DNA of 38,291 nucleotides from Rhodococcus sp. (in: high G+C Gram-positive bacteria) (GTDB lineage Bacteria; Actinomycetota; Actinomycetes; Mycobacteriales; Mycobacteriaceae): the NCBI GenBank assembly GCA_004211695.1, contig SEEV01000019.1, positions 1-38,291 of the forward strand. Reading direction: 5' to 3'. Shown here piece by piece: positions 3,484-26,500 of this stretch. The notes below the pieces were generated by a model. That model made no database searches, was not told the DNA's origin, and was given only the letters and a program-made list of their open reading frames with translations. Position 1 is the stretch's first letter; each line of letters opens with the position of its first letter. A program made the translations under genes and the position numbers.

Positions 3484-3957
3484 ATGTCCACTGTCAGCGG
3501 GTTGCCCGCCCATGTTCTGTTCGTCCATTTCATCGTGGTCTTGGCACCGCTGACCGCAATTCTGCTCGTCCTGTGCAGCATGTGGCCCGCGGCCCGACGC
3601 CGACTGGCATGGCTCACCCTCGTGCTCGCCGCCGTGACCGCGGTCTTGACTCCGCTGACCACCGACGCCGGCGAGTGGCTCGAGAGACACGTCGCGAGGT
3701 CGGTTGCGGTGCACACCCACACCGAACTAGGCGACACCATGATCTACTTCTCCGTCGCGCTTCTCCTCGCCGCGTTGGCCGTCGGCGCGGTCCAGCTTCG
3801 GGAACGAAAATCGGATCCCTCACGGCCGCTCACACTGATCGTTGCGTTTCTCGCGATCGTGGTGGCAGTGGGAACCATTGTTCAGATCTACCGCATCGGC
3901 GAGTCCGGTTCGCGCGCCACCTGGGGCGACTCCGTCACCTCGAACTCAGCGCAGTGA
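3484..3957 (+). CDS. Small four-helix membrane protein, DUF2231-like
   Basis: A 157-residue integral membrane protein of unknown function. It begins MSTVSGLPAHVLFVHF, and the LPAHVLFVHFIVVLAPL opening resembles the DUF2231 family of predicted membrane proteins. Four hydrophobic segments are visible at roughly residues 10-30, 38-55, 82-102 and 115-133, with a basic stretch (RERKSDPSR) before the last. The ATG at 3484 is chosen because family-like sequence starts there; no strong ribosome site is visible. It lies between a decapitated NRPS and a fossil of another NRPS C domain that starts immediately after its stop codon. The neighbouring kinase/regulator genes make envelope-stress function possible, but nothing in the sequence proves it. 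Confidence 0.75.
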   Translation: MSTVSGLPAHVLFVHFIVVLAPLTAILLVLCSMWPAARRRLAWLTLVLAAVTAVLTPLTTDAGEWLERHVARSVAVHTHTELGDTMIYFSVALLLAALAVGAVQLRERKSDPSRPLTLIVAFLAIVVAVGTIVQIYRIGESGSRATWGDSVTSNSAQ

Positions 3958-4175
3958 CTCCAACTTCACCATCGTCACACTCGACTGCGACGGACTGGAG
4001 TTCGCGATCGCACCGCAACCACCCGCCATCGCGGAATGCGATCCGCATTTCCACTTCACCGATCACCGGCATCGACAGGTGAACTCGTGTAGGCGGCCGA
4101 TCTCTGCGACCACGACACGGTCACCGGATTCCTGTCTCTCTGCTCCGTCATCCTCGCCGAGACGCTCGCATGAGA
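3958..4175 (+). pseudogene. Fossil of an NRPS condensation-domain C-terminus
   Basis: Directly after the membrane-protein stop, one plus-strand frame reads LDCDGLEFAIAPQ and AECDPHFHFTD. This matches the end of the upstream C domain (IEGLRVEITPRP and AKCDLHFYFTE). The match continues in a different frame with GELV, an in-frame TAG, AADLCDHDTVTGFL and ILAETLA, matching VVYSTDLFDESTVGLL and DVLARA. At least one frameshift (near 4075) and one stop (4090-4092) interrupt it. It is therefore a decayed copy of about 70 residues of a C domain, not identical to the copy at 3200-3415. It shows that NRPS sequence once extended further right or was duplicated around the membrane-protein gene. Confidence 0.65.
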
Positions 4176-4237
4176 TCCGAGATCGCACCGACGGGCGGGG
4201 CGGGGCCGCGGCCGCGGTGTCGGTCAGACTGAACACC

Positions 4238-5634
4238 ATGGACCGGCGCAGCCTGAACCCCGAACACTGGAACGTGCGAGTGCGATCCGCTGCGGCGGCG
4301 GTCCTCGCCGTGACGGCGTGCCTGCTCCTGGCAGGTGGTGCGCTCCTGTTCGTGTTGTACCGCAACCTCGAACACTCCGCCCGCGACACTGCCGACTCAC
4401 GAGCCCACCAGATCATCGAGCAATTGCGCACTCAGCCACCCCAGGAACTCGACGAGTCGTTACTCGCCACCGACGGCGATATCGGAGCCATCCAAATCCT
4501 CGACAACCAGGGAAACGTGCTCGCCACCTCGGCCGGGATCCCGTCGGCACCGGTCCTCGCCTCCCCGCTGCTACCCGGCGAGTCCACCTACCTCGGCAAC
4601 ATCGACTTCGGGCACGAACGCGACTACTGGGTGGCCGCCCACGGAAGCATGTCCCCGAACGGGCCGGTCACCGTCGTCACCGGCGCGGACCGCGAACCGG
4701 TCGAAGGCGTCCTAGCCACCGTCGCAGCGCTCCTCGCGATCGGTGCCCCGATCGTCATCGGCTTCGTCGCCGCCGCCACCTACCGGCTCATCGGTGCAGC
4801 CCTGCGCCCGGTGGAGAGGATCCGTGCCCGCGTGGCGGCGATCTCCCCCGATCAACTCGACGAACGGGTCCCCGTGCCCGAAGCCCGAGACGAGATCGCC
4901 GATCTCGCTGTCACCATGAACAACATGCTCGCGCGGCTCGAGGCCGGGCACCTCGCCCAGCAACGCTTCGTCTCCGACGCCTCCCACGAACTGCGCAGCC
5001 CGCTGGCGACCATCACCGCTGCACTCGAACTCGCACATTCGCGCCCCGAATTGATCGACACGGCCCTGGTCGACGAATCCTTGCTTCCCGAAGCCCGACG
5101 AATGCATGCCTTGATCGAGGATCTCCTCCTGCTCGCGCGCGCCGACGAAGACTCACTGATCCACCTGCGCGTCGACGTCGATCTCGACGATCTGATCCTG
5201 GCCGAACGCGCCCGCCTCCGGGACCTTTCCGGCATCGCGGTCGCCGCCACCGTCGACCCTGTTCGGGTGGCCGGCGACCCACAGCAGCTGGCTCGGCTGG
5301 TCCGCAATCTCGTCGACAACGCCGTCCGCCACGCGCACACCCGAATCACCCTCGCCTGCCAACGGCGTGGGGAGAACGCCGTCATCGAGGTGGCCGACGA
5401 CGGGCCGGGTATTGCCCCGGCGGACCGCACCCGGATCTTCGAACGATTCGTCCGCCTCGACACCCCCGAACCCGCGCATCCGGTGGTTCCGGACTCGGTC
5501 TCGCCATCGCCGCCGAGATCGTCGCCGCACACCACGGGTCGATCGACGTACTCGACCGGGAGGGCGGGGGTGCGCACTTCGTCGTCACGCTCCCAGTCGG
5601 CGACGACCGCTACGTCTCCGACGGCATCGAATAA
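4238..5634 (+). pseudogene. OmpR-partner histidine kinase with one frameshift
   Basis: Membrane sensor kinase of a two-component system. From ATG 4238: transmembrane segment at about 18-42, an extracytoplasmic domain of about 120 residues, a second membrane segment at about 163-187 and a HAMP linker. The phosphoacceptor motif FVSDASHELRSP has His250. The N box is LVRNLVDNAVRHA and the G1 box is DDGPGIAP. At the run of five C's at 5463-5467 the frame shifts by one base. The G2 box GGSGLGLAIA and the C-terminus VVTLPVGDD continue in the next frame to TAA at 5632-5634. Adding one C restores RLDTPRTRASGGSG and a 465-residue protein. Without it the ATP-binding lid is lost. A GTG at 4217 is an alternative start. 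The 3' end overlaps the convergent regulator gene by 25 bases. Confidence 0.8.
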
Positions 5635-6284
5635 CCCACACCCCGGACCGTGTCGATGCTCGTCGTGCCGAACGGAGCATCGATCTTGCGCCGAAGATAG
5701 CCGATGTAGACCTCCACGATGTTGTCGTCACCCTCATAATTGGCGTCCCACACCGATTGCAGAATATCGTGTTTGGTGACCACCGAATCGGCGTGACGCA
5801 TCAGGAACTCGAGCACACTGTACTCGCGGGGCGTCAGCTGGATGCGGGTGTCACCGCGGGTGACCCGCCGCATGGCCGGGTCCAACGAGAGTCCGGCAGC
5901 ACTCAGAACCGGGGGCCGCGGCGGGGCGCCGCGCCGCACCAGCGCCCGCAACCTGGCCACCAGCACCACGAACGAGAACGGTTTGATCAGATAGTCGTCG
6001 GCACCGAGGTCGAACGCATCGGCGAGGTCGTACTCGCCGTCCTTGGCCGACAGCATCAGCACCGGCGTCCACACCTGCTGCTGACGCATCTCCCGCACCA
6101 CGTCGTACCCGTTTTTGCCGGGCAACATGATGTCGAGGACCACCACATCGAAGCCACCACCTGCCGCGGCCGCCAGCCCGGCGACGCCATCGTGTTCGAC
6201 CTGCACGGTGGCCCCGTCAGCCGTCAGACCGCGTCGTATCGTCTCGGCCAGGCGTGTCTCATCTTCGACCAGCAACACCCGCAC
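5610..6284 (-). CDS. OmpR/PhoB-family response regulator
   Basis: A 224-residue DNA-binding response regulator, the presumed partner of the adjacent kinase. The receiver domain (about 1-115) has the acidic pair in VEDE (7-9), phosphoacceptor Asp51 in VVVLDIMLPG, a switch Ser in LMLSAKD and Lys101 in YLIKPF. The winged-helix effector domain (about 130-224) contains LTPREYSVLEFLM, VYIGYLRRKID and the C-terminal TVRGVGY. The GTG at 6284 is preferred over an upstream ATG at 6311, because GGAGGAG (6291-6297) sits six bases before it and the receiver begins at once with VRVLLVEDE. The gene faces the kinase tail to tail and overlaps it by 25 bases. Kinase and regulator therefore have separate promoters, unlike the usual operon. 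Confidence 0.92.
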   Translation of the reverse strand: MRVLLVEDETRLAETIRRGLTADGATVQVEHDGVAGLAAAAGGGFDVVVLDIMLPGKNGYDVVREMRQQQVWTPVLMLSAKDGEYDLADAFDLGADDYLIKPFSFVVLVARLRALVRRGAPPRPPVLSAAGLSLDPAMRRVTRGDTRIQLTPREYSVLEFLMRHADSVVTKHDILQSVWDANYEGDDNIVEVYIGYLRRKIDAPFGTTSIDTVRGVGYSMPSET

Positions 6285-6290
6285 CGCAGC

Positions 6291-6297
6291 CTCCTCC
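6291..6297 (-). promoter_or_regulatory. Ribosome binding site fixing the regulator start
   Basis: GGAGGAG on the minus strand lies six bases upstream of GTG 6284. It decides the start of the response regulator against the in-frame ATG at 6311, which lies upstream of this site. Confidence 0.7.
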
Positions 6298-6659
6298 ACA
6301 CCATCACGCAACCCCGTGGTCCCACGGTACGACGACGCCGGTCGGCGCCGCCCGAACCCACCGGCGAAAGTGCCGCACCTGCAATTCCCGGACCAGCCCC
6401 AGCAACCTGAGTATTACGGGCAACGGCCAGCGCGTAGGCACCACCCCAAGTCTGCTGGTTCTGCGATGGTTCGCGCACAACAGAGGGATCATCGAGCAAG
6501 CGTTCTCGGATGAAGCCTGACGCGCCCCTCCGCCATCGACGGTTCATCAAAAATGTAAGTGCAGCAGTGACTCCCGTAGCATGAGCTCATCTCTCGACCG
6601 CGGCACCACCATCACCTGACCTCTCCAGTGCCGGCGTCTGCGCGGTCGCCCGGGTCGGC
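6298..6659 (-). other. Intergenic stretch with no recognisable gene
   Basis: This is 362 bases between the response regulator and the membrane-protein stop. Short open frames on both strands give low-complexity, Arg/Pro-rich translations without recognisable motifs. It presumably holds the regulator promoter, but no convincing hexamers were seen. Confidence 0.5.
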
Positions 6660-8412: not shown

Positions 8413-8586
8413 CTAGCTGATCGGGACGCCGCCGACCGTGCCGAACTGGTCGAGATCCATGTGGAACACGACACCATGCTCGGGGTCCCATTCGTAGGTG
8501 CCGGAGCCGTTCTCGGTGTGCTGCGGCCCCGCATTGTTTGTGGGCTCGGCCTGGTTGTCGGTGCTGCTCTGCGCACGTTCCGTCAT
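8413..8586 (-). CDS. 57-residue acidic protein at operon end
   Basis: A small hypothetical protein of 57 residues starting MTERAQSSTDNQAEPTNN. A disordered, polar N-terminal half is followed by a compact end, GTYEWDPEHGVVFHMDLDQF and then GTVGGVPIS. The contrast between the low-complexity half and this well-ordered half suggests a real product. Another in-frame ATG lies three codons upstream (8595). It follows the RsbW-type kinase gene by just over 100 bases on the same strand and may be the last gene of the polysaccharide/partner-switch operon. No family recognised. Confidence 0.5.
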   Translation of the reverse strand: MTERAQSSTDNQAEPTNNAGPQHTENGSGTYEWDPEHGVVFHMDLDQFGTVGGVPIS

Positions 8587-8700
8587 GGCGGGCAAGCGGC
8601 CACCGCCGAGAACTGCTGAGCATTCTCGCCCACTGAGCGAGTCCAGTGAGGATCGTGGTTCCCTCGGTGAAGGATTCGGCCGACCGTTGTCAAGCCTGCG

Positions 8701-9117
8701 TCAACCCGCCCGGTTGCGGGTCAGAATCCAGGTGTTCACCTTGCCGTCCCGCTGGTAGTCGAATCGGTCGAGAACCGAGCCGGCGATCGCAAGGCCGCGG
8801 CCGCGCTCGGCGAGTTCGTCTGGGAGTTCGGTGGCGGTGAGATCGACCGACACCGGATCGCCGTCGTCCTCGAACCGGGCCTCGATCCGGTCGGGCAGCG
8901 CCCGGACTTCGAGTGTCATGACCACGCTGTCGCCGGCGGTGTGCTCGATGATGTTGGCCGCGATTTCGGCGACAGCGGACTCGAACTCGATGCGCCGACG
9001 CACGTCCAGCGGGTCGTGCACCCACAGGTCGGCGAGGATTTCGTGGACCTCGTCCAGGCTTTCCGGACGGGCGGTCATGCGAAGCCGCCGGGAGAAGGAG
9101 CCGAGTTCAGCGGCCAT
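8701..9117 (-). CDS. RsbW-type anti-sigma serine kinase
   Basis: A 138-residue GHKL-fold ATPase acting as the kinase arm of a partner switch. In known systems it phosphorylates the STAS partner and binds either that partner or a sigma factor. The N box is AVAEIAANIIEHT with the conserved Asn55. The G1-like motif is FEDDGDPV and the G2-like loop is ELAERGRGLAIAGSVLD. The ATG at 9117 lies inside the end of the STAS gene (stop at 9107-9109), an 11-base overlap that implies translational coupling and 1:1 stoichiometry. No sigma factor gene is in the operon. The client is therefore either elsewhere in the genome or not a sigma factor; the adjacent glycosyltransferase is a tempting candidate (inference). 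Confidence 0.9.
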   Translation of the reverse strand: MAAELGSFSRRLRMTARPESLDEVHEILADLWVHDPLDVRRRIEFESAVAEIAANIIEHTAGDSVVMTLEVRALPDRIEARFEDDGDPVSVDLTATELPDELAERGRGLAIAGSVLDRFDYQRDGKVNTWILTRNRAG

Positions 9118-9445
9118 CGAATGCGGAATCGACCGAGTTGTGTGTTCGGAGTACACGGTTGAGGTTGGTCAGCGCGAGCACGGTCTCGACCTGCTCGGTG
9201 GGCTGCGCGATGCGGAGGTCGCCACCGGCCTGCCGGGCGGTCTTGAGACCGGAGATGAGTGCCCCGAGCCCCGAGGAGTCGATGAAGTCGGTGGCGCTGA
9301 GATCGACCACCACACGGGTCGTTCCGCCGTCGACGAGGTCGCGCAACAGGTCTCGCAGGCGGGGTGCGGCGACCATGTTCAGCCTGCCGGCCGGACGCAC
9401 CACGGCCACACCCTCTTCCGTGGTGTGGCTCTCGAACTCGATCAT
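9107..9445 (-). CDS. STAS-domain anti-anti-sigma factor
   Basis: A 112-residue SpoIIAA/RsbV-like protein. A single STAS domain spans the length: VAVVRPAGRLNMVAAPRLRD, then VVVDLSATDFIDSSGLGALI. The phosphorylatable serine is Ser58 in DSSGLG. In partner switching the dephosphorylated form captures the RsbW-type kinase; phosphorylation by the kinase and dephosphorylation by a SpoIIE phosphatase set the state. Both enzymes are encoded in this operon. The start ATG overlaps the glycosyltransferase stop as ATGA (9442-9445), and AGGAGG lies just upstream inside the glycosyltransferase gene, so its translation is coupled to polysaccharide synthase translation. Confidence 0.93.
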   Translation of the reverse strand: MIEFESHTTEEGVAVVRPAGRLNMVAAPRLRDLLRDLVDGGTTRVVVDLSATDFIDSSGLGALISGLKTARQAGGDLRIAQPTEQVETVLALTNLNRVLRTHNSVDSAFDGR

Positions 9446-11394
9446 TCGGTTTCCTCCTGCCCGAAGCCGCGGTATCGGACCGCGGGGATGACGACACTCA
9501 AGATGACCAGGTCGAAGGCGACCCAGAACAGGTTCACACCGACGCCGAGCACGGAGATGTTCCCGAGCGCCAGATGGATCACGCCGATCACCGACGCCAG
9601 GACGAGTGCCGCCATCGCGATCAGTTGGTACCGCACCACATGCCACGGGGTCGCGCCGTGTTCCTGCCGGGTCTTGGGCGTCACCGCGAAGCCCAGCGGC
9701 CGCCCTGCGTACACGTTGAGTACAGCGGTCCAGCACGCCTTGATCCAGACCGGGAAGAGGGCGAGGCTGTACTGCTGGCCGCGCCAGGTGGGAGTGCCGC
9801 GGCTGACCGCGAAGAATACCAGTTGGTTGAAGGCGAGGAACGGGATGAGACGGCCGAAGAACTCCCAGCTGTACGCCTGCACGGGCATGACGCCGAAGAC
9901 GAGATAGACCACGGGTGCGGCGATGTAGACGACGGCGGCGAAGCCGGAGAGATAGCTCCACATCGTCGCCCAGTACATCAGCCGCTGCGCGAGTGTGAGT
10001 CCACGCTGCAGCAGCGGGTTCTCCCGGAACATCACCTGGATGGTGCCCTGTGCCCACCGCAGTCGCTGGGTGAGCATCGTGCCGGCGTCTTCCGGTGCCA
10101 GACCGTGGGCAAGATTCTCGTGGTGGTACGCGGTGTGCCATCCCAGTTCGTGCAGTTTCATGCACGTCGCCATGTCTTCGGTGACCGAGATGGTGGCCAT
10201 CGGCAACACCGGCTGCGCCTCGTCGTCGCGGCCGACGTCGACCGCCCGGATCAGGGTGCGGACGGATTCGATCGCGCCGAGCGGCGACCATTCGCGTTCG
10301 GCTAGCCGCGTCAATGCGGCATCGTCGAGTACCGCGACGGGGGCGTCGGTGTCGTGCAGTTCCGCTTCGAGCGCGGCGATGGCTGCCAGGTCCTCGCGCA
10401 TCGACCCGACGTCTGCGTCGACAATCCGGCGTTCGGCGGCGTCGACCCGCTGTTGGAAGTTGTAGGTGACATCGGCGAGTGATCGGTTGCCGCGGAGGTC
10501 TTCCCGTGCCGTGTGCACGGCCTCGGTGACATCGTCGAGGGCGTCGGCGATCTCCTTCTGGTCCGCGTTCAGATCGGTACGTGCCTTCGTGACTACCTTC
10601 GCGGCCGTCCGCAGGGCCCGCTGCACGTCGCGTTCGACGGCTTCGACGTATCCGGCGATGCCGAGCTGCATCAGGGCGTCGCGGCGCAGAACGGCGTTGG
10701 AACCGCAGAAGAAGGCGGCGTTCCAGCCGTCTTTGCCCTGCTGGATGGGACCGTAGAACAGCGGTGCCTGGCTGCCGAGAGGGTCGCTCGCGGACACGTT
10801 CACGAAGTACTGCGGTGTCTGGACGATGGCCATCTTCTCGTCCGTGAAGTATCCGAGAGTGCGATCGAGGATAGCTGGATCGGGCACCTGGTCGGCGTCG
10901 AGGATGAGGATGTACTCGCCTTCGGTGAGCATCAGTGCGTTGTTCAGGTTGCCTGCCTTGGCGTGCCGGGGTTTGTTCGTCCAGGACGCCGCACGGGTCA
11001 TGTAGCGCACGCCGAGTTCGTCGGCGGCGCGGGACAGTTCGGGGCGGTCACCGTCGTCGAGAATCCAGGTGGTGTGTGGGTACCGGATCCGGTGTGCCGC
11101 GGCTGCGGTCGCGAGTACCAGGTCCTCGGGTTCATTGTAGGTGGTGATGAAGACGTCGACGGTGAGGTCGCGGGGCGGCGGTGGCGGCGTGGGCCGCTTC
11201 CGTAGTTGCCACATGGTCAGCCCGAACAGCAACGAGTCGATCAGACTGTAGGTTTCGGCGATCACCAGCGGCACAGCGATCCACCACGCCGGCCAGTTCA
11301 CCGAGAACAGCCATCGCCACACGATGTAGTTGAGACCGAGCAGTGCGGTGAGGACGATCAGTATCCGGAGACCGGCAAGCCGGAGGGGTGACAC
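9442..11394 (-). CDS. Cellulose-synthase-like GT2 with helical insertion
   Basis: A 650-residue processive family-2 glycosyltransferase in the membrane, which would polymerise and export a polysaccharide from a nucleotide sugar. N-terminal membrane helices lie at about 7-28 and 35-60. The catalytic motifs are complete: ILDDGD (113-115), ILDADQ (166-168), SVTED (405-407) and QRLRW (443-447). About five further helices follow from residue 460. Family members have only about 15 residues between CGSNAVLRRDAL and the TED motif. Here there are about 155 (247-402), rich in heptad-like charged/hydrophobic stretches (VERDVQRALRTAAKVV, QKEIADALDDVTEAV), probably a coiled-coil hairpin. GTG 11394 is chosen because GAGGAGG precedes it by six bases, right after the phosphatase stop. 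There is no PilZ domain, so it is not an obvious c-di-GMP target. The sugar substrate is unknown. Confidence 0.9.
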   Translation of the reverse strand: MSPLRLAGLRILIVLTALLGLNYIVWRWLFSVNWPAWWIAVPLVIAETYSLIDSLLFGLTMWQLRKRPTPPPPPRDLTVDVFITTYNEPEDLVLATAAAAHRIRYPHTTWILDDGDRPELSRAADELGVRYMTRAASWTNKPRHAKAGNLNNALMLTEGEYILILDADQVPDPAILDRTLGYFTDEKMAIVQTPQYFVNVSASDPLGSQAPLFYGPIQQGKDGWNAAFFCGSNAVLRRDALMQLGIAGYVEAVERDVQRALRTAAKVVTKARTDLNADQKEIADALDDVTEAVHTAREDLRGNRSLADVTYNFQQRVDAAERRIVDADVGSMREDLAAIAALEAELHDTDAPVAVLDDAALTRLAEREWSPLGAIESVRTLIRAVDVGRDDEAQPVLPMATISVTEDMATCMKLHELGWHTAYHHENLAHGLAPEDAGTMLTQRLRWAQGTIQVMFRENPLLQRGLTLAQRLMYWATMWSYLSGFAAVVYIAAPVVYLVFGVMPVQAYSWEFFGRLIPFLAFNQLVFFAVSRGTPTWRGQQYSLALFPVWIKACWTAVLNVYAGRPLGFAVTPKTRQEHGATPWHVVRYQLIAMAALVLASVIGVIHLALGNISVLGVGVNLFWVAFDLVILSVVIPAVRYRGFGQEETE

Positions 11395-11405
11395 AGGCGT
11401 CCTCC

Positions 11406-12629
11406 TCAACAGTCGCGACGTCGAAGGGCGACGACGGTGATGTCGTCGAGGGGCGGGGAGACATCGGCAAGGTCGTGAACCGCTGCCAGCAGCTGCTTCG
11501 GTGACGGGTGCGCAGCGGCGAACGCAGGCACCGACTCCCATTCGCAGTCGGCGTCGTCGAGGTGGTCGAGCAATCCGTCGGAACAGATCACGCGCATGTC
11601 GCCAGGGTTCAATGCGGTGCGTTGCGCCGCCCACGAGTCATTGTCGATCACTCCCAGCGGGAGCCCGGAACTCGACAGCGGTTCCACGGTGCCGTCCCGC
11701 CGGACAATCATCGCGAGACCGTGTCCGCCGTCGACATAGTCGAGTGCACCGGAGTCGACGTCGAGGGCGGCATGGAACAGGGTCACGAACGTGCCGGTAC
11801 GGTCGAAGTCCTCGGCGAGTTGGCCCGCCACAGCAGCCACCGTGCGTCCGAGGTCGGGGCGATCCTCGCCGTACCAGGCCAGGGCATGGGTGACGCCGCG
11901 CAACGCGGACCGGACCGAAGCCGTCAGGATCGCCGCCCGCAGGCCCTTGCCCATGACGTCCGCGAGGCTGAACAGCGCACTGGAACCGACCCGGTAATAG
12001 TCGTAGAAGTCGCCCCCGACCGCGAAGGCCTGCACGCACGACGACTCCAGTTCGTATCCCGGCAGATCGATCTCCTGTCGAGGGAGCAGTTCACGCTGAA
12101 TCGTGGCGGCGCGCTCGAGTTCGTCGGAGTGCTCGAGTTCCCGCTGCGCCCATTCGGCGAGTTCGACGAAAGCCGCCAACTGCGTCGAGTCGAGTCTGCG
12201 GGGTTCGGTGTCGTAGATGCAGAACGTCCCGACCGGGTGGCCGCCGGGCCCGTACAGCGGATAGCCGGCGTAGAACCGCACCCCACCGTCCGCGGCAACC
12301 CCGGGCAGATCCGCGAACGCCGTATCGCGACGTGCGTCCTCGAGGATCACCATCGGATCCTCCGGATGGTGATACGCCCGGGCGATCGTCGCCTGGCATA
12401 CGGTCTGCGATCGCGGAATGTTCTGCAGGTCGAGGCCCTGCGTCGACTTGATCCACTGCCGATCCCGATCGAGCAGCGACACCGCCGACATCGGAACTCC
12501 GAAGAGGTGACGCGCCATTCGGGTGATCTGGTCGAAACGCGCCTCGGGTGGCGTGTCCAGAATCGCCAGCTGTTCGAGCGAACGAAGCCGCGCAATTTCG
12601 GTGCCCTCGGCAATGATCGGGATGTCCAT
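11406..12629 (-). CDS. GAF-SpoIIE (PP2C) phosphatase
   Basis: A 407-residue cytosolic sensor phosphatase. The N-terminal GAF domain spans about 20-165 (RFDQITRMARHLFGVPMSAV, then YPLYGPGGHPVGTFCIYD). A short linker, LERAATIQRELLP, typical of SpoIIE/RsbU proteins, leads to the PP2C domain at about 190-405. Metal-site motifs are GGDFYD (205-210), DVMGKGLRA (224-232), DGGHG, CSDGLLDHLDD and DDITVVAL. In partner switching it dephosphorylates the STAS protein; that gene lies two genes downstream. Its ATG at 12629 follows the GH26 stop by a single base (TGACATG), and its stop is 11 bases before the glycosyltransferase start, so all are in one operon. The GAF input ligand cannot be told. Confidence 0.94.
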   Translation of the reverse strand: MDIPIIAEGTEIARLRSLEQLAILDTPPEARFDQITRMARHLFGVPMSAVSLLDRDRQWIKSTQGLDLQNIPRSQTVCQATIARAYHHPEDPMVILEDARRDTAFADLPGVAADGGVRFYAGYPLYGPGGHPVGTFCIYDTEPRRLDSTQLAAFVELAEWAQRELEHSDELERAATIQRELLPRQEIDLPGYELESSCVQAFAVGGDFYDYYRVGSSALFSLADVMGKGLRAAILTASVRSALRGVTHALAWYGEDRPDLGRTVAAVAGQLAEDFDRTGTFVTLFHAALDVDSGALDYVDGGHGLAMIVRRDGTVEPLSSSGLPLGVIDNDSWAAQRTALNPGDMRVICSDGLLDHLDDADCEWESVPAFAAAHPSPKQLLAAVHDLADVSPPLDDITVVALRRRDC

Positions 12630-12630
12630 G

Positions 12631-13465
12631 TCAGCGGTACTTCCTCCCCAATACGTCCGCCAGGGCGGCAGCCGATTCCGGTGTGCTCGTCAGCCGCCAG
12701 TCGGCTTCCTTGTCGTGATCGAACCATACGAAACCGGACACGTCGTCCTGCGCTGTAAGGAAGTCGACGAGCGCGCCGATCCACTCGGCCTTCGACCCAC
12801 CGGCGTCGGCGCTTTCCACCTCGGTAACCAAAATCGGCTTACGCGGCACCAAATTCCGCAGTTCGTCCAGACCCGGACCGAAGAGTTCGGCCGGTTCCAC
12901 CCACGTACTCCACGACTGCGTCGTGCCCCAGTTGTATCCGTCCACACCGAGAACGTCGACGTAATCATCCCCGGGATACAGGTCAGCCACCGGGCTGCTG
13001 CCTTCGAATTGGACGTTGGGCGCCCACACCCATTTCACGTTGTCGGCGCCCTTCGGTGCGAACAGGTCGTGGATGTGACGCCAGGCAGCGGCATAGCTGC
13101 TCGGCTGCGTCCCCTGGGTCACACTCCACGGATACCAGGTTCCATTGGGTTCGTGGGCGAAACGGAGATAGACCAGTGGCTCCCAGGCGATCAGTTCGTC
13201 CGCTCACCGGTACAGGTAGTCGTCGTGGACGCCCGCGGCAATGGACGACAACGAGAACTCACTCGACCCGTATCGCCTCTCGTCGAGCCACCGCCAGGGT
13301 TCCCAGGTGATCACCGGCATGGCGCCGAGGCCGCGCACGGCCCAAAGACCATCGACCGGGGAGGGCGAGGTGAAATCGGAATACGACAGAACGACGGTCG
13401 GTGGTTCGCCGTAGGTCCAGGTCGGCCACAGATGGCCGCGATTAACCGCACATCGTGCCCGAGAA
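12631..13465 (-). pseudogene. GH26 beta-mannanase-like glycosidase, in-frame TGA
   Basis: Glycoside hydrolase family 26-like protein. Frame-continuous homology runs from about HLWPTWTYGEPP through AMPVITWEPWRW and GVHDDYLYR. A TGA at 13204-13206 comes next, and the same frame continues ADELIAWEPLVYLRFAHEPN, then GTWYPW. The family has Trp at the TGA position (YxxRWA), so a single TGG to TGA change is the simple explanation. The acid/base Glu (FAHEPNG) and nucleophile Glu (ILVTEVESAD) both lie after the stop, with the C-terminus ending VLGRKYR. The N-terminus beyond about 13465 does not read as GH26 or as a clean signal peptide in this frame, so the start is undefined and possibly also damaged. 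It heads the operon; its stop is one base from the phosphatase ATG. Its likely role was trimming or releasing the polysaccharide made by the GT2. Confidence 0.8.
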
Positions 13466-13862: not shown

Positions 13863-14651
13863 TGTCAGGGTAGGGCGACCTGAGCTTCGTGAGCTGGGTC
13901 CTCAAGGACCTCGTTCAGGCGACCTCGAGGGCCGAGGCTGTGATGGGGCGCTGTTCACGGTAGCGCGTCTCGTACTCGATGGGCGACAGGTAGTCGATCG
14001 ACGAATGCAACCGGTCCGCATCGAACCAGCGAACCCACTCGGCCGTTTCCTGCTCCACCTCGGCCCGCCCGGACCACGATCGGTCCCGGAGGATCAGCTC
14101 CTCTTGTAGAGACGTACGGTCGATTCCATCCGCGCGTATCGAGGGCGTCCCCGACGCTGCCGATCGAGCCGGCGATGCCCAATTCGGTCAGCGCGTCGAC
14201 GACTACCCGTGAGGAATATCGCGACCCTGCATCCGCAGTGAGGTACCAAACCTGTTGCAGTGAAACGTAAATCGGTCCTCTTGCGGGTGAACAACGCCTG
14301 CTCGGGCGCCGCGCCGACCAACGGTGTGGCCTTCGTGGTCATCACCGGCCAGCCCAGAATCCGGCGGGAGAAGACGTCGACGCAGCCCCGGGCGAGGCGG
14401 CCTCGTCCCGCTCGATCCAGTTCCGCAGCGTCGCCGGCGCGATGCCGAGCAACCCGCCGACATGGCGACGGTCGGCGACCTTCGAGCCGCCGTGCTCGTC
14501 GAGCCGGTCCCGATACATTCGTACGGCCCGTTCCTGGGTCTCGGCGTCGAACTACTTCGGTGCAGGCATACCAGCATTCTCCTTGTTGGATCAGCAGCCT
14601 CCACCTCATCCAGGACGGTTCACACCTCCACCCGATGTGATCCACCGGACA
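13863..14651 (-). mobile_element. Decayed IS3-family insertion sequence
   Basis: Limits are inferred from candidate ends: TGTCAGGGTAGGGCG at 13863 on the plus strand and TGTCCGGTGGATCAC at 14651 on the minus strand share TGTC-GG. No 3-base target duplication is apparent (GAA against GTT). Inside are only the two ends of the transposase genes, so the element is deleted internally and cannot transpose by itself. Confidence 0.55.
13915..14569 (-). pseudogene. IS3-family transposase remnant (orfA start, orfB end)
   Basis: On the minus strand, ATG 14569 (AAGGAGA nearby) begins MPAPK, then a TAG stop where the family has Lys. The frame continues FDAETQERAVRMYRDRLDEH and SKVADRRHVGGLLGIAPATL, the orfA helix-turn-helix. 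Near 14390 it jumps directly to the C-terminal half of orfB (DVFSRRILGWPVMTTKATPL). orfB then changes frame at least twice: GLVP; ADAGSRYSS and GIAGSIGSVGDALD; MESTVRLYK; and finally AEWVRWFDADRLHSSIDYLS with YRE QRPITASALEVA, stopping at 13915-13917. About 180 residues of the middle are missing, including part of the DDE core. Dead element. Confidence 0.8.
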
Positions 14652-16710: not shown

Positions 16711-17592
16711 TCATCGCATATCCGGCACTGGCCGGGACGGCGCCGTCATGGGCTGACCGGCCGCTCCGTCCGGTGGCGTTCCGGCGCCCACGATATCGCC
16801 CAAGATCGGGCAGGCGATGGCCAAGGCATCGGGGGACGTCATTCGCCAATGCGTGGCCGGCACCAGGTGCTCGTACACCGTTCCGGTCACCGCCCCACCC
16901 CATTCCCGCATCGCCCGTGTGCCGGTGGGATCGTCGGCGGCGGCGGTGAAGAAGACGAGGTCGCCGTCGAAGCGGTCGGGCCGGTACTCGGACATCAACC
17001 GGGCGTTGCGCTCCGCCGTCGACAGGAGCCGGTCCACGACCTGTTCGGCCCGTTCGAGGGAATGCCCACTGATCTCGGCCAACGCGACGGTGACGTTGTC
17101 GAGACCAGGATCAGAACCGACAGCCGTCCCGTCGACGCCGAACCCGCCCAATATCTCTCTCAACGAGATCTCCTCGGCCTGCTCATCGTCGACCAGGGTC
17201 GACCCGGCGAAGCTGTCCATCATGGCAAGCAACTCCACCTTTTCCCCCGCCGCCTGCAGCCGGACCGCCATCGCATGCGCTATGACGCCGCCAAGGGACC
17301 AGCCGAGCAGCCGGTACGGACCGGCCGGTTGTACGGTGCGGATCTCGCTTATGTAGCGGTCGGCGAGTTCCTCGAGTGACTCGGGCAGAAACCTCTCCTC
17401 GAGAATCGACGGACTCTGGATGCCATAGATCGGCATGTCGGAGTCGAGGTGCTGCGACAGACCCGAGTAGCACCAGGACAATCCGACGATCGGGTGGATG
17501 CAGAAGAGCGGCGTCCCCGCGCCGGACTCCCGAATGGGAAGGAGGGGGCCGAGGCCCTCCGCGGCCGCAGCCTCGGCGCCAACCTCGATCCG
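16711..17592 (-). other. NRPS thioesterase domain
   Basis: Residues about 5776-6068. Type I thioesterase: LFCIHPIVGLSWCYSGLSQH gives the oxyanion region, GWSLGGVIAHAMA holds Ser5874, LAMMDSF probably holds the Asp, and VPATHWRMTS holds the His. It follows T5 directly and should release the peptide by hydrolysis or cyclisation. A short Pro/Ala-rich tail ends in PVPDMR. Confidence 0.9.
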
Positions 17593-20500
17593 ACCGGCCA
17601 ATGCCTGCACCGTGGGATCGGAAAACAACCACTGGAGTGGGACGGTCGTGTCGAGTGCGCTGCGCAACCGGGCGACGATTCCGGTGGCGATCAGCGAGTT
17701 GCCGCCCAGGGCGAAGAAGTCGTCGTCGAGTCCGACCCGATCGAGGCCGAGGGCGTCTTCAAAGATGTCGGCGACGATCTGCTCGACCGTAGTTGTCGGT
17801 GCCCGGAACTCCCGCGCCGCCCACACCGGTGCCGGTAGCGCCTTTCGATCGAGCTTTCCGCTGGGGGTCAACGGCAACTCGTCGAGGACCATCAGCACAT
17901 CCGGAACCATGTATGCGGGGAGCGACCGCCCGGCAGCCTCGCGCACTGCCTCCGTGTCGACGGCCCGGCCGCTCTCCGGCACCACATACCCGACCAGTCG
18001 CTGACCGATGTCGCTTTCGTGCACCACAGTCACGGCCTGAGCGACCGCGTCCTGCACCGCCAGCGTCGATTCGATCTCGCCCAGCTCGATCCGCAGACCT
18101 CGCAGCTTGACCTGCAGGTCGGTTCGCCCCAGGAACTCCAACTGCCCCTGCGTGTTCCACCGTACGAGATCGCCCGTGCGATACATCAGCGCCCCCGGCT
18201 CGCCGAACGGGTGGGCCACGAACCGTTCTGCTGTCAGGGTGGCGCGACCATGGTAGCCGCGGGCCAACTGCACACCCGCGAGATACAACTCCCCGGCCAC
18301 TCCCACCGGCACCGGATGCAGACGTTGATCCAGCACCAGCGTCGTCGTATTCCACACCGGCTCACCGATCGGGACGGTCAGCACGTTTCGTTCATCGCAT
18401 CGGTAGTACGTCACCGTGACCGCCGCTTCGGTCGGACCATACATGTTGTCGAGGCGTGCAGCCGACTTCGTCGCGAGGCGGGCGGACATTTCCACCGGCA
18501 ATTCCTCGCCGCCGACATACACCAGCCGCAACGAATCGGGGATCCGCACATCGGGGTCCGCCAGGAGCGCCCCGAGCATCGAGGGCACGAACTCCGCCAC
18601 GGTGACGCCCGTGTCCTCGATCAGCGCCAGTAGATACTCCGGATCACGATGCCCGTCGGGCCGCGCGACAACCAACCGAGCCCCGACGGCCAACGGTAGA
18701 AACAGTTCCCACACCGACACATCGAACGTGATCGGCGCCTTCTGCACCACCACATCGAAGTCGGTGAACTCGTACTCCGAGACCATCCACAGCAGAAGGT
18801 TGACGATCGCGCGGTGACTGACCGCTACTCCCTTCGGCCGCCCGGTCGACCCCGAGGTGAAGATCACGTATGCGGTGTTCGCGGGGCGCACCGGCGCAAG
18901 GAGTTCGGATCCGCTTACCGCTGCCGAGGAGTACGCCGACAAATCCACCGTGTCGACGTTCACGACGCGATGCCCGGACGCGACGAAACCGTCTCCGGAA
19001 GTGGACAACACGCACACCGGGTCGGCGATGTCGAGCACATAGTCGTTGCGTTCCCGGGGCTGGTCCGGATCCACCGGTACGTACCCGCCGCCCGCCCGGA
19101 GCACCGCGTACATCCCGATCACCAGGTCCAGCGATCGGCGCATCCCCACCGCCACCAACGACTCGGGACCCACCCCGAACGAAATCAGATGCCGGGCCAA
19201 CCGGTTCACCCGAGCATCGAATTCGGCGTAGGTCAGCGACTCACCCTCGAACGCCAGCGCCGCAGCATCCGGCATGCGCGCCACCTGCGAGTCGAACCCG
19301 TCGAGCAGCAACAGATCCGGCACCTCGTGCTCGGTAGCGTTCCATTCCGCCAGTGTCCGATGCCGCTCGATTTCGTCGACGATTGAGATGTCCCCCACCG
19401 GCACCGATGGATTGTCGGCGACCGCCTCGAGGACGCGAACGAACCGTTCGGCGATCTGTTGCGCCGTCGCGGCATCGAAGATGTCCGTTGCGTATGCAAG
19501 CGTCCCCACGTACGCGCCGCCGGCGCCGGCGGGTTCGCCGAGGGTCATCGATAGGTCGAACTGCGCCGCTGCCCACTCCGCCGCCACCGGTGAGACCGTC
19601 AGCCCCGCGAGCTCCACCTCCGACTGGGTGTAGTTCTGGAACGCCAGCATCACCTGGAACAGAGGGGAGAACGACTGCGACCGTGTCGGGTTCAGCTTCT
19701 CCACCACCCGCTCGAACGGCACATCCGCCCGAGCGAACGCCTCGAGGTCGGTATCACGCACCTGCTCCACGAGTTCGGTGAACGACAGGTTCGGGTCGCA
19801 ATCGGCCCGCAACACCAGCGTGTTGACGAACATCCCGACCAGATCGTCCAACGCCGCCTCGCCGCGGCCGGCGATCGGCGAGCCCACCGCGATATCGGTG
19901 GTTCCGCTCAACTTCGCGAGTAGCACGGCCAGCGCCGCGTGCGCCACCATGAACGGCGTCGCGCCCTGCTCTCGAGCCAACGACTGCAACCGCTCCACGG
20001 TCGTCGCCGACACGGTGAACTCGACACCGGAACCGATCCCCGACCGGACCGCCGGACGTGGCCGATCGGTCGGCAGGGCCAATACGTCCGGCAGACCAGC
20101 CAGCGCATCGATCCAGTACTCGATCTGCTGCGAGAGCAACGATCCAGGATCATTCTCCGACCCGAGGACCTCCCGCTGCCAGAGGGTGTAGTCCGCGTAT
20201 TGCACCGGCAGTGGCGCCCACCCGGGCTCGTGGCCGCCGTGCCGGGCGGCGTACGCCACCATCACGTCCCGGGCCATCGGTCCCGTCGAGAAGCCGTCTG
20301 CGCAAATGTGGTGGACGACGACCGTCAGCACGTGCTCGGACTCCGCGAGCCGGAACAAGGCTCCACGGATCGGCACCGACTCGGTGACGTCGAAGCCTTG
20401 TGTCATCAAGGTGGCCGCACGATTGCGCAGCTCGTCCTCGCCTGTGACCGGTACCGGTGTGAGATCCACCGGAACCTCGGATGCGGGCACGATTTTCTGC

Positions 20501-23500
20501 GCTGGGCCGAGATCGGAGTCCGGGAATACCGTCCGCAGCGCCTCGTGCCGCGCGAATACGTCGCGCACCGCCGCCTGCAACGCCGCCACATCCAGCTCGC
20601 CCGACAAGCGGACCACGAACGGAATGTTGTAGGCCGTCGAATCCGGATCGAACTGGTTCAGGAACCACATCCGCTGCTGCGCCAGCGACAACGGAACATG
20701 CTCCGGCCGCTCTCGGCGAGTGAGTGCATGTCGACCGCCGGCACCGGCATGCTGCTCGGCGCGGACCGCGAGCGCGTGCACCGTCGACGCCTCGAAGATC
20801 ACCCGCACCGGCATTCGGGTGTCCAGTGCGGCACCGAGCCGGGAGATTACCTGGGTGGCGATCAGGGAGTTGCCGCCGAGTGCGAAAAAGTCGTCGTCGA
20901 GTCCGACCCGGTCGAGGCCGAGGACGTCGGCGAACACCGCGGCGACGGTTTCCTCGACAGGATTGGTCGGGGCCCGGAACTCCCGGGCGGCCGGCTGTGG
21001 GGCGGGCAGCGCCTTGCGGTCGAGTTTGCCGGAGCCGTTGAGCGGCAACACGTCGAGCACGGTCAGCACGTCGGGCACCATGTACCGGGGCAGGCTCTGC
21101 CCCACCGCGGTGCGGGCGGTGTCGATCTCGATGGTGTGTCCGGCGGCGGGGACGACGTACCCGACCAGTTGCTGACCGAAGTCGCCGTCGTGCACGATGA
21201 CCACGGCCTGCGCGATCGGTTCCTGCGCCACCAGCGCCGATTCGATCTCGCCGAGTTCGATCCGCAGGCCGCGGAGCTTGACCTGGAAGTCGGTGCGGCC
21301 CAGGTATTCGAGGTTCCCGTCCCGGTTCCACCGCACAAGGTCCCCGGTGCGGTAGAGACGTTGACCGACACCCGCCAAGGGGTGGGCCACGAACCGGTCC
21401 GCGGTCAGGTCCGGGCGGCCGAGGTAGCCGCGGGCGACCTGCACCCCGGCCAGATACAGCTCCCCCGGCACCCCGACCGGCACCGGCCGCAGTCGGTGGT
21501 CGAGGACGTGCGCTCGGGTGTTGCGGATCGGGGTGCCGATCGGGATCGGACCGGGTACCGGCTGCGGCGGGCAGCGGAACACCGTCGCCGTCACCGTCGT
21601 CTCGGTCGGCCCGTAGGTATTGTCGAGGATCGCGTCGGTGCGGTCGGCGAACCGGGCCGCCAGATCGGTCGACAGTGCCTCCCCGCCGACCGAGACGTAC
21701 CGCAGCGACACCGGCAGGGTCAGCGCCGAGTCCGCGGCGAGGAACAGCGCGAGCATCGAGGGCACGAACTCCAAGATAGTGACCTGCCACCGCTCCGCGG
21801 CGCGGACCAGGTATTCGGGGTCCCGATGCCCGCCGGGCACCGCGACCACCAGCCGGGCGCCCACCTGCAGCGGGTAGAACAGCTCCCATACCGAGGCGTC
21901 GAAGGTGATCGGGGTCTTCTGCAGCACAGTGTCGTTCGCGCCGAGCCGGTACCGCTCATCCATCCAGGCCATCTGATTGACCACCGACCGGTGGTCGACC
22001 GCGACGCCCTTGGGGCGTCCGGTGGATCCGGAGGTGAAGATGGCGTAGGCCAGGTTCTCCGGCCGCAGCGGCGCCCGCCGATCCGTATCGGTCACCGCCG
22101 CGGCCGAGTACCCGGACACATCCAGGGCGTCGACCGCGACCGCGTCCACCCCGGCCGGGAGGGCGCCGCGGTCGGCGGTACTGGTCAGCACCAGCACCGG
22201 AGCCGCGGTCGCCAACACGTAGGCGGTGCGGTCGGTGGGGTGCTCCGGGTCGATCGGCAGATACCCGCCGCCGGCCGCGAGCACCGCGTAGAGACCGACC
22301 ATCATCTCGACGGACCGGCTCATCGCCAGACCCACCACCGATTCCGGGCCGACCCCCTGCGCGATCAGGTACCGCGCCAGCCGGTGCACCCGCGTGGCGA
22401 ACTGCGCGTAGGTCAGCGCGGTGTCATCGAACACCACCGCCACCGCGTCCGGAGTCCGCGCCACCTGCGCCTCGAACACCTCCACCAGTGTGGCATCCGG
22501 GGCCGGGACCGCGGTCGCATTCCAGCCGTCCACCGCCCGGCGTTCGGCCTCGCTACGCAGCTCGATCGCCCCGACCGGCACGGCCGGCTCCGTGGTGGCG
22601 GCCTCGAGGATTGTGGTGAATATGGCACCGAACCCGGCCACGGTCGAGTCCTCGAACAGATCCAGTGCGTAAGTCAGCGCACCATCGATCCCGCTGCGCC
22701 GCCCGTCCGGGTCGAACCGCTCGCTGAGGTTCAGCTCCAGGTCCAGCTTCGCGCCCACCGTCCCGGTGTCGATCGGGTCGATCTGCAGATCGGGCAACGA
22801 CACCCGCGATTCGGCGTAGTTGTGCACCACCAACAACACCTGGAACAACGCCGAGTACGCAGTCGAGCGGGTCGGGTTCAAGATCTCGACCAACCGTTCC
22901 ACCGGCACGTCGGGGTGACCGAAACCGGCGAGATCGACCTCCCGGACCTGGGTGAGCACGTCCGCGAACGATGCCGCACCGTCGATCCGGGTTCGCAGCA
23001 CCAGGGTATTGCCGAACATGCCGACCAGGTCGTCGAGCGCCTGTTCGCCTCGCCCGGCGATCTGGGTGCCGATCGGGATGTCCTCGGTACCGCTGAGCCG
23101 GGCCAGCAGTACCGCCAGCGCCGTATGCGCCACCATGAAGAACGTCGCCTGGTGCTCGCGCGCCAGCCGGTCGATCCGCTCGGCGAGGTCGGCGGACAGG
23201 GTGAAGTTCACCGTCGCCCCGCGGGGGGACTGCACTGCCGGGCGCGGATGATCGGTCGGCAACTCCACGAGATCCGGCAGATCCGCCAATTCCTCGGTCC
23301 AGTAGGCCAGCTGCCGTGAGAGCACCGACTGCGGATCGTCCTCGGTGCCGAGGACCTGCTGCTGCCAGAGCGCGTAATCCGCGTATTGCACCGGCAGCGG
23401 CGCCCACCCGGGCTCGTGGCCGGCGCGGCGAGCGGCATAGGCCACCACCAGATCCCGGGCCAGCGGCGCCGTCGACCCGCCGTCCCCGGAAATGTGGTGC

Positions 23501-26500
23501 ACCACCATCACCAACACGAACTCGGCGGCGCCGAGTTGCAGCAGCTGCACCCGCACCGGGACCTCGACCGTGACATCGAACCCGCGGCCCGCCAGCTGCG
23601 CCACCTGGTCATACGCCTGCTGCGGTGTCACCGGCCGCGGATCCAGATCGACCGGCACCTGCGAGACCGGCACGATCACCTGTGCCGGACCGTGATCGAA
23701 GTTCGGGAACACCGTCCGCAACGCCTCGTGCCGGCTCAGCACGTCGACCACCGCCGCCCGCAGCGCCGCCACATTCAGCGCGCCCGTCAATCGGATCGCC
23801 ACCGGGATGTTGAACGCCGACGACTCCGGATCGAACTGATTGAAGAACCACATCCGCTGCTGGGCCAGCGACAACGGCACCCGCTCCGGCCGCTCCCCTG
23901 CCATCAACACCGGACGGGTGGGTCCGCGCTCGGCGGCGTCCAGGCGGGCGGCCAGCGCAGCGACTGTTGACGCTTCGAATAGTTCTCGGACGGCCAGTGC
24001 GGTGCCAGCGGTGGTGTTGAGGCGGGCGATGACCCGTGTCGCGGTCAGGGAGTTGCCGCCGAGGGCGAAGAAGTCGTCGTCGAGGCCGACCCGGTCCAGG
24101 CCCAGGATGTCGGCGAACACCTGCGCCACCCGGGATTCGGACACCGACCGCGGTGCGACGAATTCACGCACGGCGAAAGTCGGTTCGGGCAGTGCTCGGA
24201 CATCGACCTTGCCGGCGGGGGTCAGCGGCAACGCGACCAGGACGGTGATCGCGGACGGGACCATGTAGTCCGGCAGCAGCCTGGCCGCGTGCGTGATAAG
24301 CGTTGGCGGATCCACGGGCTGGCTGCCGCGTCCCACGACATACGACACGAGGGTGCCGGTGCCGGGATGCGTGACCGTGACGGCCGACTGCACGTTCACG
24401 TGCGCGGTCAGGGCGGCATCGATTTCGGCGAGTTCGATGCGGTGCCCGCGCACCTTCACCTGGGCGTCGGCGCGCCCGAGATATTCCAACGCATGAGACG
24501 CCGTCCGGCGCACCAGATCGCCCGTGCGGTACAGGCGTGTCCCGCTGCTCCCGAACGGGTCGGCAACAAATCGTTCCGCCGTCAGGCCTGGCCGGTCGTG
24601 GTATCCGCGCGCCAGTCCCTGACCGCGCAGGTACAACTCGCCGGCGACCCCGGTGGGGACGGGATGCAGCCGTGCATCGAGCACCAGCACTTCGGTGCCG
24701 TGAACCGGAGTGCCGATGAGCACCGGGTCACCGGCCGCCATGGGACCGTGATGGGTTGCCATGATCGTCGACTCGGTGGGTCCGTAGGCGTTGAACATCT
24801 TCCGCCCCGGTGCCCAGCGGTGTACCAGTGACGCCTCGCACGCCTCGCCGCCGACCACCACGACGCCGATGCGGTCCAATCCTTCGGGTTCGATGGTTGC
24901 GAGGGCGCCCGGGGTGAGGAACATGTGGGTCAGCTGTGCGTCCCGCAGGATCGCGGCCAGTTCCGTGCCGCCGTAGATATCGACGGGGACGATCACCATT
25001 GTCGCGGCGCCGCCCGAGGCCATCAGGAGCTCGAGGATCGAGGCGTCGAAGCTCGGTGATGCGAAGTGCAGTGTGCGCGCGCCCGGCCGAATCTGGTAGT
25101 GCCGTTGTTGCTCTGCGACGAAGGCGGCGAGTCCGCTGTGGGGTACGACGACACCCTTGGGGGTGCCGGTCGAACCCGAGGTGTAGATCAGGTAGGCGGG
25201 GTTCTCGGGACTCAGCGGCGCCAAGCGGTCCTCGTTGGTGAGGGTGCGGTCGGGCTGCCCTGCGATTGCGTCAAGGGTGCTCGGTGTGTCGAGGACTACC
25301 CAGGCGACCGTGTCGGGGAGATGGTCGCGGTGCGCGCTGGTGGTGATTCCGCTGGCCACGCCGGAGTCGCGGAGCATGTGCTCGATGCGCTCGGCTGGAT
25401 AGGTGGGATCTACCGGAACGAACGCGGCCCCGGTCTTGGCGACCGCCCAGAACGCGACGACGGACTCCACGGACCGCTGCACAGATACGGCGACAAATGT
25501 CTCGGGGCCGGCGCCGCGGGCGATCAGCAGCCGGGCGAGGGCGTTCGAGCGTCGGTCCAATTCGCCATAGGTCAGCTCGCGGTATCTGTCGCCGGCGTCG
25601 GCCAACGCAGCCGCGTCCCGATGGTGCGCTGCGTCGGTGAGTAGGTCCGGGAGTGTGCGGACGGCGACGGACGTGGGTTGGCGGACGAGATCCGCCCGTT
25701 CGGTGCGGTCGAGGATGTCGATGTCTCCGACCGGTGTCGTCGGCTCCGCGACCGCGGCCTGCAGGATGCGGGTGTACCGGTCCGCGAAGGTAACCGCGGT
25801 CGCATGGTCAAACAGGTCGCGGGCGTAGGTCAGCGTCGCCCGGGCCCCGGCGGTGCCATGTTCATCGACGCCCTCGGTGACGACCAGCTGCAGATCGAAA
25901 TTCGCGATCCCGAAATCGATTGACTGCTCGCTGATCTGCAGCCCCGGCAGGGCGATACTGTGCAGTGCAGTGGTGTCGAGGGCAAGCACGGTCTGGAAGA
26001 GCGGATGGTGCGCTGTCGATCGTGGTGTGTCGGTGACCTCCACGATGCGCTCGAAGGGGACGTCGGCGTGCGCGTAGGCGGACAGGTCGGTGGCGCGGGT
26101 GGATGCGAGCAACTCGCCGAACGTCACGTCGGGGTGGACAACGGTCCGCAAGACCAGGGTGTTGACGAACATGCCGACCACATCGTCGAGGGCGTGCTCG
26201 CCTCTGCCTGCGACGGGGGTGCCGATGGTGATGTCGTCGGTGCCGCTCAGCCTGGCGAGGAGCACGGCCAGGGCGGTGTGCAGCACCATGAACGGTGTCG
26301 CGTTGGTTGTGTGTGCGAGGTCGGAGACCGCGGCATACGTGCCGGACGCGATGTCGAAGTGGACGCTTCCGCCCTGGAAGCTGGGCATGGGCAGTCGCCG
26401 CCGGTCGGAGGGCAGATCCAGCACGGCGGGGCTTCCGGCCAATGCGGTCCGCCAGTAGTCGATCTGCCGGGAAGCGAGGGATGCGGGATCCTCCTCCTGG

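Follow-up and report, generated by a model that had tools for sequence, protein, structure and literature searches.

Partner switches are textbook controls of transcription. In Bacillus subtilis, the RsbU-RsbV-RsbW and SpoIIE-SpoIIAA-SpoIIAB systems are built from a phosphatase, a STAS protein, and a serine kinase. Here, we describe the same three elements around a cellulose-synthase-like processive GT2 glycosyltransferase in Rhodococcus sp. (assembly GCA_004211695.1, contig SEEV01000019.1). The whole stretch of DNA analyzed, hereafter the window, spans 38,291 nucleotides. The STAS protein carries Ser58 within a DSSG motif and matches the SpoIIAA and RsbV structures (1th8, 2.8e-8, and 6m36, 1.1e-6). 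Unlike the B. subtilis systems, however, the module operon has no sigma factor, the synthase sits between the phosphatase and the STAS gene, and six of the genomes carrying the module lack a SigB/F/G-type factor. We consider it probable, from sequence comparisons, that this partner switch has the polysaccharide synthase, and not a sigma factor, as its output, with unphosphorylated STAS as the most likely effector.

Other described systems resemble this module in single aspects. In Vibrio fischeri, the STAS protein SypA and the serine kinase SypE control a polysaccharide biofilm, with the STAS protein downstream; the target of SypA is described as unknown (PMC10120452), whereas the module encodes a candidate target next to its STAS gene. 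In the SiaABCD system of Pseudomonas aeruginosa, SiaD is contacted by SiaC at its helical stalk (PMC8457831). This precedent agrees with the statement of the initial annotation that partner switches on non-sigma targets are known elsewhere, but that target is a diguanylate cyclase and the candidate here is a synthase. The partner switch HmpUVW of Nostoc is tied to motility and polysaccharide, and in Anabaena all4160 a STAS domain is fused to a glycosyltransferase (as told and as cited, respectively, in PMC8256260); these are other organisms with another arrangement, and the glycosyltransferases are likened by description only.

The synthase itself shares the processive core, the fold, and the FxVTxK motif with BcsA. 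In contrast to BcsA, it has no PilZ domain and contains an insertion of about 150 residues, and the neighbors tracked around it were the switch and a GH26 glycosidase (BcsB was not searched for). The parts are known. What we did not find in the literature searched is their arrangement, in which a BcsA-like synthase that has no PilZ is enclosed by a switch kept even in genomes lacking SigB/F/G-type factors: judging by titles and abstracts, no description of the operon appeared among the matches listed from the open-access PubMed Central literature. Many actinobacteria tie a partner switch, normally controlling gene-reading factors, to a cellulose-synthase-like enzyme. Since the candidate STAS target shares the operon with STAS, is coupled to it in translation, and is kept along with it in genomes that have no SigB/F/G-type sigma factor, the question of the target is directly testable. 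If our reading is true, it would represent a way of regulating a BcsA-like synthase that is independent of cyclic di-GMP (c-di-GMP).

At the level of gene layout, the module lies on the minus strand. It includes a GAF-SpoIIE (PPM-type) phosphatase, presumed to act as the sensor and the STAS phosphatase (11406..12629; Pfam SpoIIE 5.9e-31, GAF 5.9e-12), followed after a gap of 11 bases by the GT2, of 650 amino acids and with a GTG start (9442..11394; Pfam Cellulose_synt 2.4e-20). The GT2 overlaps the RsbV/SpoIIAA-like STAS gene by four bases, ATGA (9107..9445; Pfam STAS 9e-21), which in turn overlaps the gene for the putative RsbW-type serine kinase by 11 bases (8701..9117; Pfam HATPase_c_2 8.2e-13). 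The order, the junctions, and the placement of the synthase mid-operon, between the phosphatase and STAS, had been given in the initial annotation and were borne out by the coordinates of the open reading frames and by Pfam and NCBIfam scans. It had also reported that no sigma factor is present, and we found none among the open reading frames of the window when reading them by eye, without a dedicated scan. Ser58 of the STAS protein, which it had named for variants and which is the presumed phosphorylation site, falls within D56-S57-S58-G59, invariant in 23/23 aligned module STAS proteins.

The ATP-site residues of RsbW (E51, N55, G106, R107, and G108) were invariant in 22/22 aligned proteins; searched alone by sequence against the PDB, RsbW gave no significant relative (best E 0.19). 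The sensor part of the phosphatase varies: it is GAF in the window, whereas in L020 and L202-L208 the N-terminus looks receiver-like by eye. A single RsbW-SpoIIE fusion was seen (L021). In three Arthrobacter loci (L064, L071, and L074), an uncharacterised but related protein of 208-235 aa stands upstream of the GT2, replacing the module-type SpoIIE.

We scanned GTDB species genomes with the GT2, obtained 386 relatives, and retained the 80 best. Ten loci from further relatives brought these to 90, and the removal of three duplicates (L024, L029, and L033, which repeat L015, L017, and L018) left 87 places; L067 and L068, from two contigs of one strain with the same layout, were both counted. STAS and RsbW were found within the stretch in 77 of the 87 loci and were adjacent to each other in 77/77. 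STAS directly followed the GT2 on the same strand in 75 loci, and in L020 and L090 the switch adjoins the GT2 but on the other strand. The GT2 and STAS genes overlapped by four bases in 47 loci and by one base in 20 (67/87 in total). SpoIIE directly preceded the GT2 in 64/87 loci, and GH26 was present in 67/87 at a variable position. The recurrence of the same order in relatives rules out chance gene order. Regarding the search for this neighborhood that had been suggested with the initial annotation, the module is kept across Actinomycetes, but in 10/87 loci the switch lies away from the GT2, which is the arrangement that the initial annotation had named as speaking against its reading. One locus labelled Kitasatospora arboriphila (L039) has a module layout identical to that of Williamsia (L018/L033), which means either transfer or a mislabelled genome.

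The two genes also go together at the genome level. In 394 Actinomycetes genomes, the best scores of the module STAS profile were at least 125 bits in 21 and did not exceed 97.2 in any other. At E up to 1e-100, the GT2 family was present in 22 of the same 394 genomes, including 21/21 of those with the module-type STAS, and the genes were neighbors in 21/21. In the 22nd genome (G624), the contig is 3,299 bases long and runs out 47 bases beyond the GT2 match. Among 101 relatives, STAS and GT2 were both found in the same 10.

A second family of GT2s, without the insertion, served as a contrast. In 396 genomes of the phylum, GT2 matches at E up to 1e-30 occurred in 22; they were full length in two (G000 and G357) and covered the N-terminal part only in 20 genomes (21 matches). 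G357 presented the insertion together with the whole module. From the 21 insertion-free GT2s, we examined 19 with stretches of 3-17 kb (G166 and G501 were left out). The module's profiles found STAS, RsbW, or SpoIIE in none of these 19 stretches, and GH26 lay near four of the GT2s. PilZ was present in 13/19, and the spacing comparable to that of the insertion, up to TED, was 25 in 13/19, the remaining six being unmeasurable by the motif pattern. In the tree, a supported branch (100/98) set the insertion family apart, with a long-branch warning attached. Thus, between families, the insertion and the switch go together where PilZ is absent.

The nearest solved relatives of the GT2, by sequence and fold, are BcsA cellulose synthases (9b8v, E 3.4e-25), and its AlphaFold2 model presented a mean predicted local distance difference test score of 77.7. 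The FxVTxK gating motif (FAVTPK, residues 569-574) is kept in the window GT2 and in 89 of the 90 loci compared. PilZ matched 0/49 members of the GT2 family at E up to 0.01. The spacing from FFCGSN to TISVTED, between which the insertion lies, was 173 residues in the window GT2 and 169-191 across the 90 loci. The insertion covers residues 246-398 (10201..10659, minus strand) and is mainly helical in the model, with predicted helices at 238-273, 280-301, 306-339, 358-366, and 371-385 and low-confidence stretches at 332-361 and 387-404. Its mean conservation was 57% versus 83% for the catalytic core, and it contains a near-invariant RxWSPLGA (367-374). It is a candidate docking site. Searched alone against the sequences of the PDB, the insertion found no match, and no natural GT2-STAS fusion was seen among the 90 loci.

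In the mechanism that we propose, RsbW would phosphorylate STAS at Ser58, and the sensor-phosphatase (GAF-SpoIIE in the window, but receiver-SpoIIE in part of the relatives) would dephosphorylate STAS in response to a signal. Whether STAS is phosphorylated, and hence which partner it holds, would set the activity or the assembly of the membrane GT2. Most likely it would be unphosphorylated STAS that binds the GT2, perhaps via the helical insertion beside the catalytic core, so that STAS would take the role that c-di-GMP and PilZ have in BcsA. A more specific version, which we put forward tentatively and hold to be possible rather than probable, is that control by c-di-GMP and PilZ was exchanged for protein phosphorylation in this family of synthases: unphosphorylated STAS would dock on the family-specific insertion and open or close the gate, and what was a sigma-factor switch would now serve as a direct allosteric regulator of a membrane machine probably making mixed-linkage beta-glucan.

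The module could instead be an ordinary switch, in which RsbW holds back a remotely encoded SigB/F/G-type factor, with the GT2 only sharing the transcript or belonging to the regulon. By family scans all parts are of the classical kind. Besides, a SigF-like factor is encoded in the genome of the window (contig C796 of G000), so a remote sigma factor is possible for this strain taken alone. We searched 56 module genomes for sigma factors, some of them without loci among the 87 and the genome of L102 not included. The SigB/F/G model matched in 56/56, because RpoD-type factors match it weakly, and was above its cut-off in 31. The best match was below 140 bits in seven (G030, G109, G115, G119, G124, G139, and G146), and G146 has FliA/WhiG-type factors in addition. 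In the other six of the 56, a SigB/F/G-type factor was absent (extracytoplasmic function sigma factors stand outside this negative), and the full-length matches were RpoD/SigA- or SigB(primary-like) by NCBIfam. Twelve candidate sigma proteins were located and ten were scanned; L105 and L107 were unscanned, and L107 (G115) was assigned by score and N-terminal sequence only. In G139, the switch adjoins the GT2 on the other strand.

G030 is the clearest of these six genomes, being a single closed contig rated 100% complete. Its module STAS is the only STAS match at E up to 1e-5. It has seven HATPase_c_2 matches, of which only the module RsbW has a short frame, of 162 aa; the frames of the remaining six measure 430-768 aa, as expected of histidine kinases. 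With this gene content, the switch of G030 has no SigB/F/G-type sigma factor to act on. A cognate SigB/F/G-type factor is therefore not a general feature of the module, and a remote sigma factor, which the initial annotation had offered as a possible target, cannot be its general function. It also leaves the tight coupling of the GT2 and STAS genes without a reason, and overall we regard an ordinary switch as unlikely.

Less probable still is that the kinase is the effector. RsbW would then bind or phosphorylate the GT2, and STAS would only titrate the kinase, like RsbV in the sigma-B system. This is the canonical direction (PMC8256260), and RsbW is as constant as STAS (77/87 loci). Against it, conservation among the four proteins is lowest for RsbW: the median pairwise identity was 64.5% for GT2, 58.7% for STAS, 44.0% for SpoIIE, and 40.7% for RsbW (300 pairs from 25 loci, hand-picked among the 76 holding all four genes, window included). 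The identity of STAS exceeded that of RsbW in 300/300 pairs. The higher conservation of STAS is in keeping with STAS being the component in contact with a conserved partner, as is presumed for SypA (PMC10120452) and as is the case for SiaC on the stalk of SiaD (PMC8457831).

The action of the switch on the synthase, as proposed in the initial annotation, is strongly supported by linkage, genome co-occurrence, and persistence without a SigB/F/G-type factor, and this action may be direct. Several points weigh against this reading. The enzyme activities, the direct binding, its site and its sign, and the polymer are all deduced from sequence. The co-occurrence counts are phylogenetically non-independent, and some of the loci counted had gone into the STAS profile. 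The contrast in conservation between STAS and RsbW stands without a clean sigma-linked control; an RsbV/RsbW set was sought and none was comparable. L022 has the module despite missing the FxVTxK motif, and some loci, among them L064 and L071 of the sigma-poor G119 and G124, showed no module-type SpoIIE in their stretch. Finally, STAS and RsbW are missing from the GT2 stretch in the ten loci mentioned above, all from Arthrobacter. The unlinked GT2s keep the insertion, so insertion and linkage are not inseparable, and the idea that the insertion exists only where the switch adjoins the GT2 proved false.

On the GT2 tree, the seven unlinked loci included were nested among linked ones, with three changes needed; the tree left out two long outgroup rows (L166 and L173). 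Thus, the unlinked state is derived. For the ten unlinked loci, eight genomes were searched (L091 and L077 belong to one strain, and L102 was outside the search), and the module-type STAS was found in 8/8. Six of the eight carry a stand-alone SpoIIE-STAS-RsbW operon (L202-L207); G142 has further GT2-STAS-RsbW sets (L208 and L209), and G127 has the linked locus L074. The stand-alone operons of the six Arthrobacter genomes would suit a switch acting on a third, unrecognised component serving the same polymer pathway (another enzyme, a c-di-GMP enzyme, or a transcription factor), but among the genes tracked, in a non-systematic survey of neighbors, only STAS and RsbW were so constantly linked, and GH26, in 67/87 loci, moves. 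We regard this alternative, too, as unlikely.

In G142, a SpoIIE-STAS-RsbW set surrounds a 51-aa GT2 remnant (L209:15645-17764), beside another GT2-STAS-RsbW set. There, the synthase has apparently decayed and the switch was left in place.

The GH26 gene gives a hint about the polymer. The initial annotation had described a complete partner switch in a five-gene operon headed by GH26. A lichenase-like GH26 frame does sit there, from 12631 to about 13413 on the minus strand (Pfam Glyco_hydro_26 7.3e-9 on the 3′ part), but it is broken by an in-frame TGA at 13204-13206 and its 5′ end has no homology to that of relatives. "Complete" was therefore overstated for the window copy. Homology to same-genus relatives starts only near 13410, and the relatives run on into a lipoprotein-like signal, absent in the window; intact GH26 copies are present in relatives. 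Either the gene is truly broken or the draft sequence is wrong there, an assembly or base error being possible in a draft genome with 1043 contigs and a completeness of 74%. Just upstream of the broken 5′ end, we noted transposase-like fragments at about 13918-14645 (minus strand; by eye, without a family scan).

For the intact GH26 of the relative L013, the best PDB match was Endoglucanase H (7.8e-47), whose GH26 we take to be a lichenase, i.e., a mixed-linkage glucanase. The best mannanase match was 2.8e-12, so a mannanase was rejected as the GH26 type, the lichenase fitting far better. A (1,3;1,4)-beta-glucan (mixed-linkage) is thus a reasonable guess for the polymer, with cellulose as the alternative.

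Regarding the rest of the window, a small open reading frame at 8413-8584 (minus strand) was considered as a sixth gene of the operon and rejected. Similar DNA is found on Rhodococcus plasmids and megaplasmids (83-89% identity), in a search where only short stretches around this frame matched, covering 3-4% of the 5,066-base query; it is probably outside the module. At about 3842-5634 (plus strand), a sensor histidine kinase is apparently split over two frames, with an apparent frameshift near 5430 (by eye), beside an intact response regulator (5610-6311, minus strand; NCBIfam). Together with the broken GH26, the split kinase hints at draft errors or decay. Finally, a single 6068-aa frame at 16711-34917 (minus strand) reads, by eye, like a non-ribosomal peptide synthetase of several modules that carries a thioesterase at its C-terminus.

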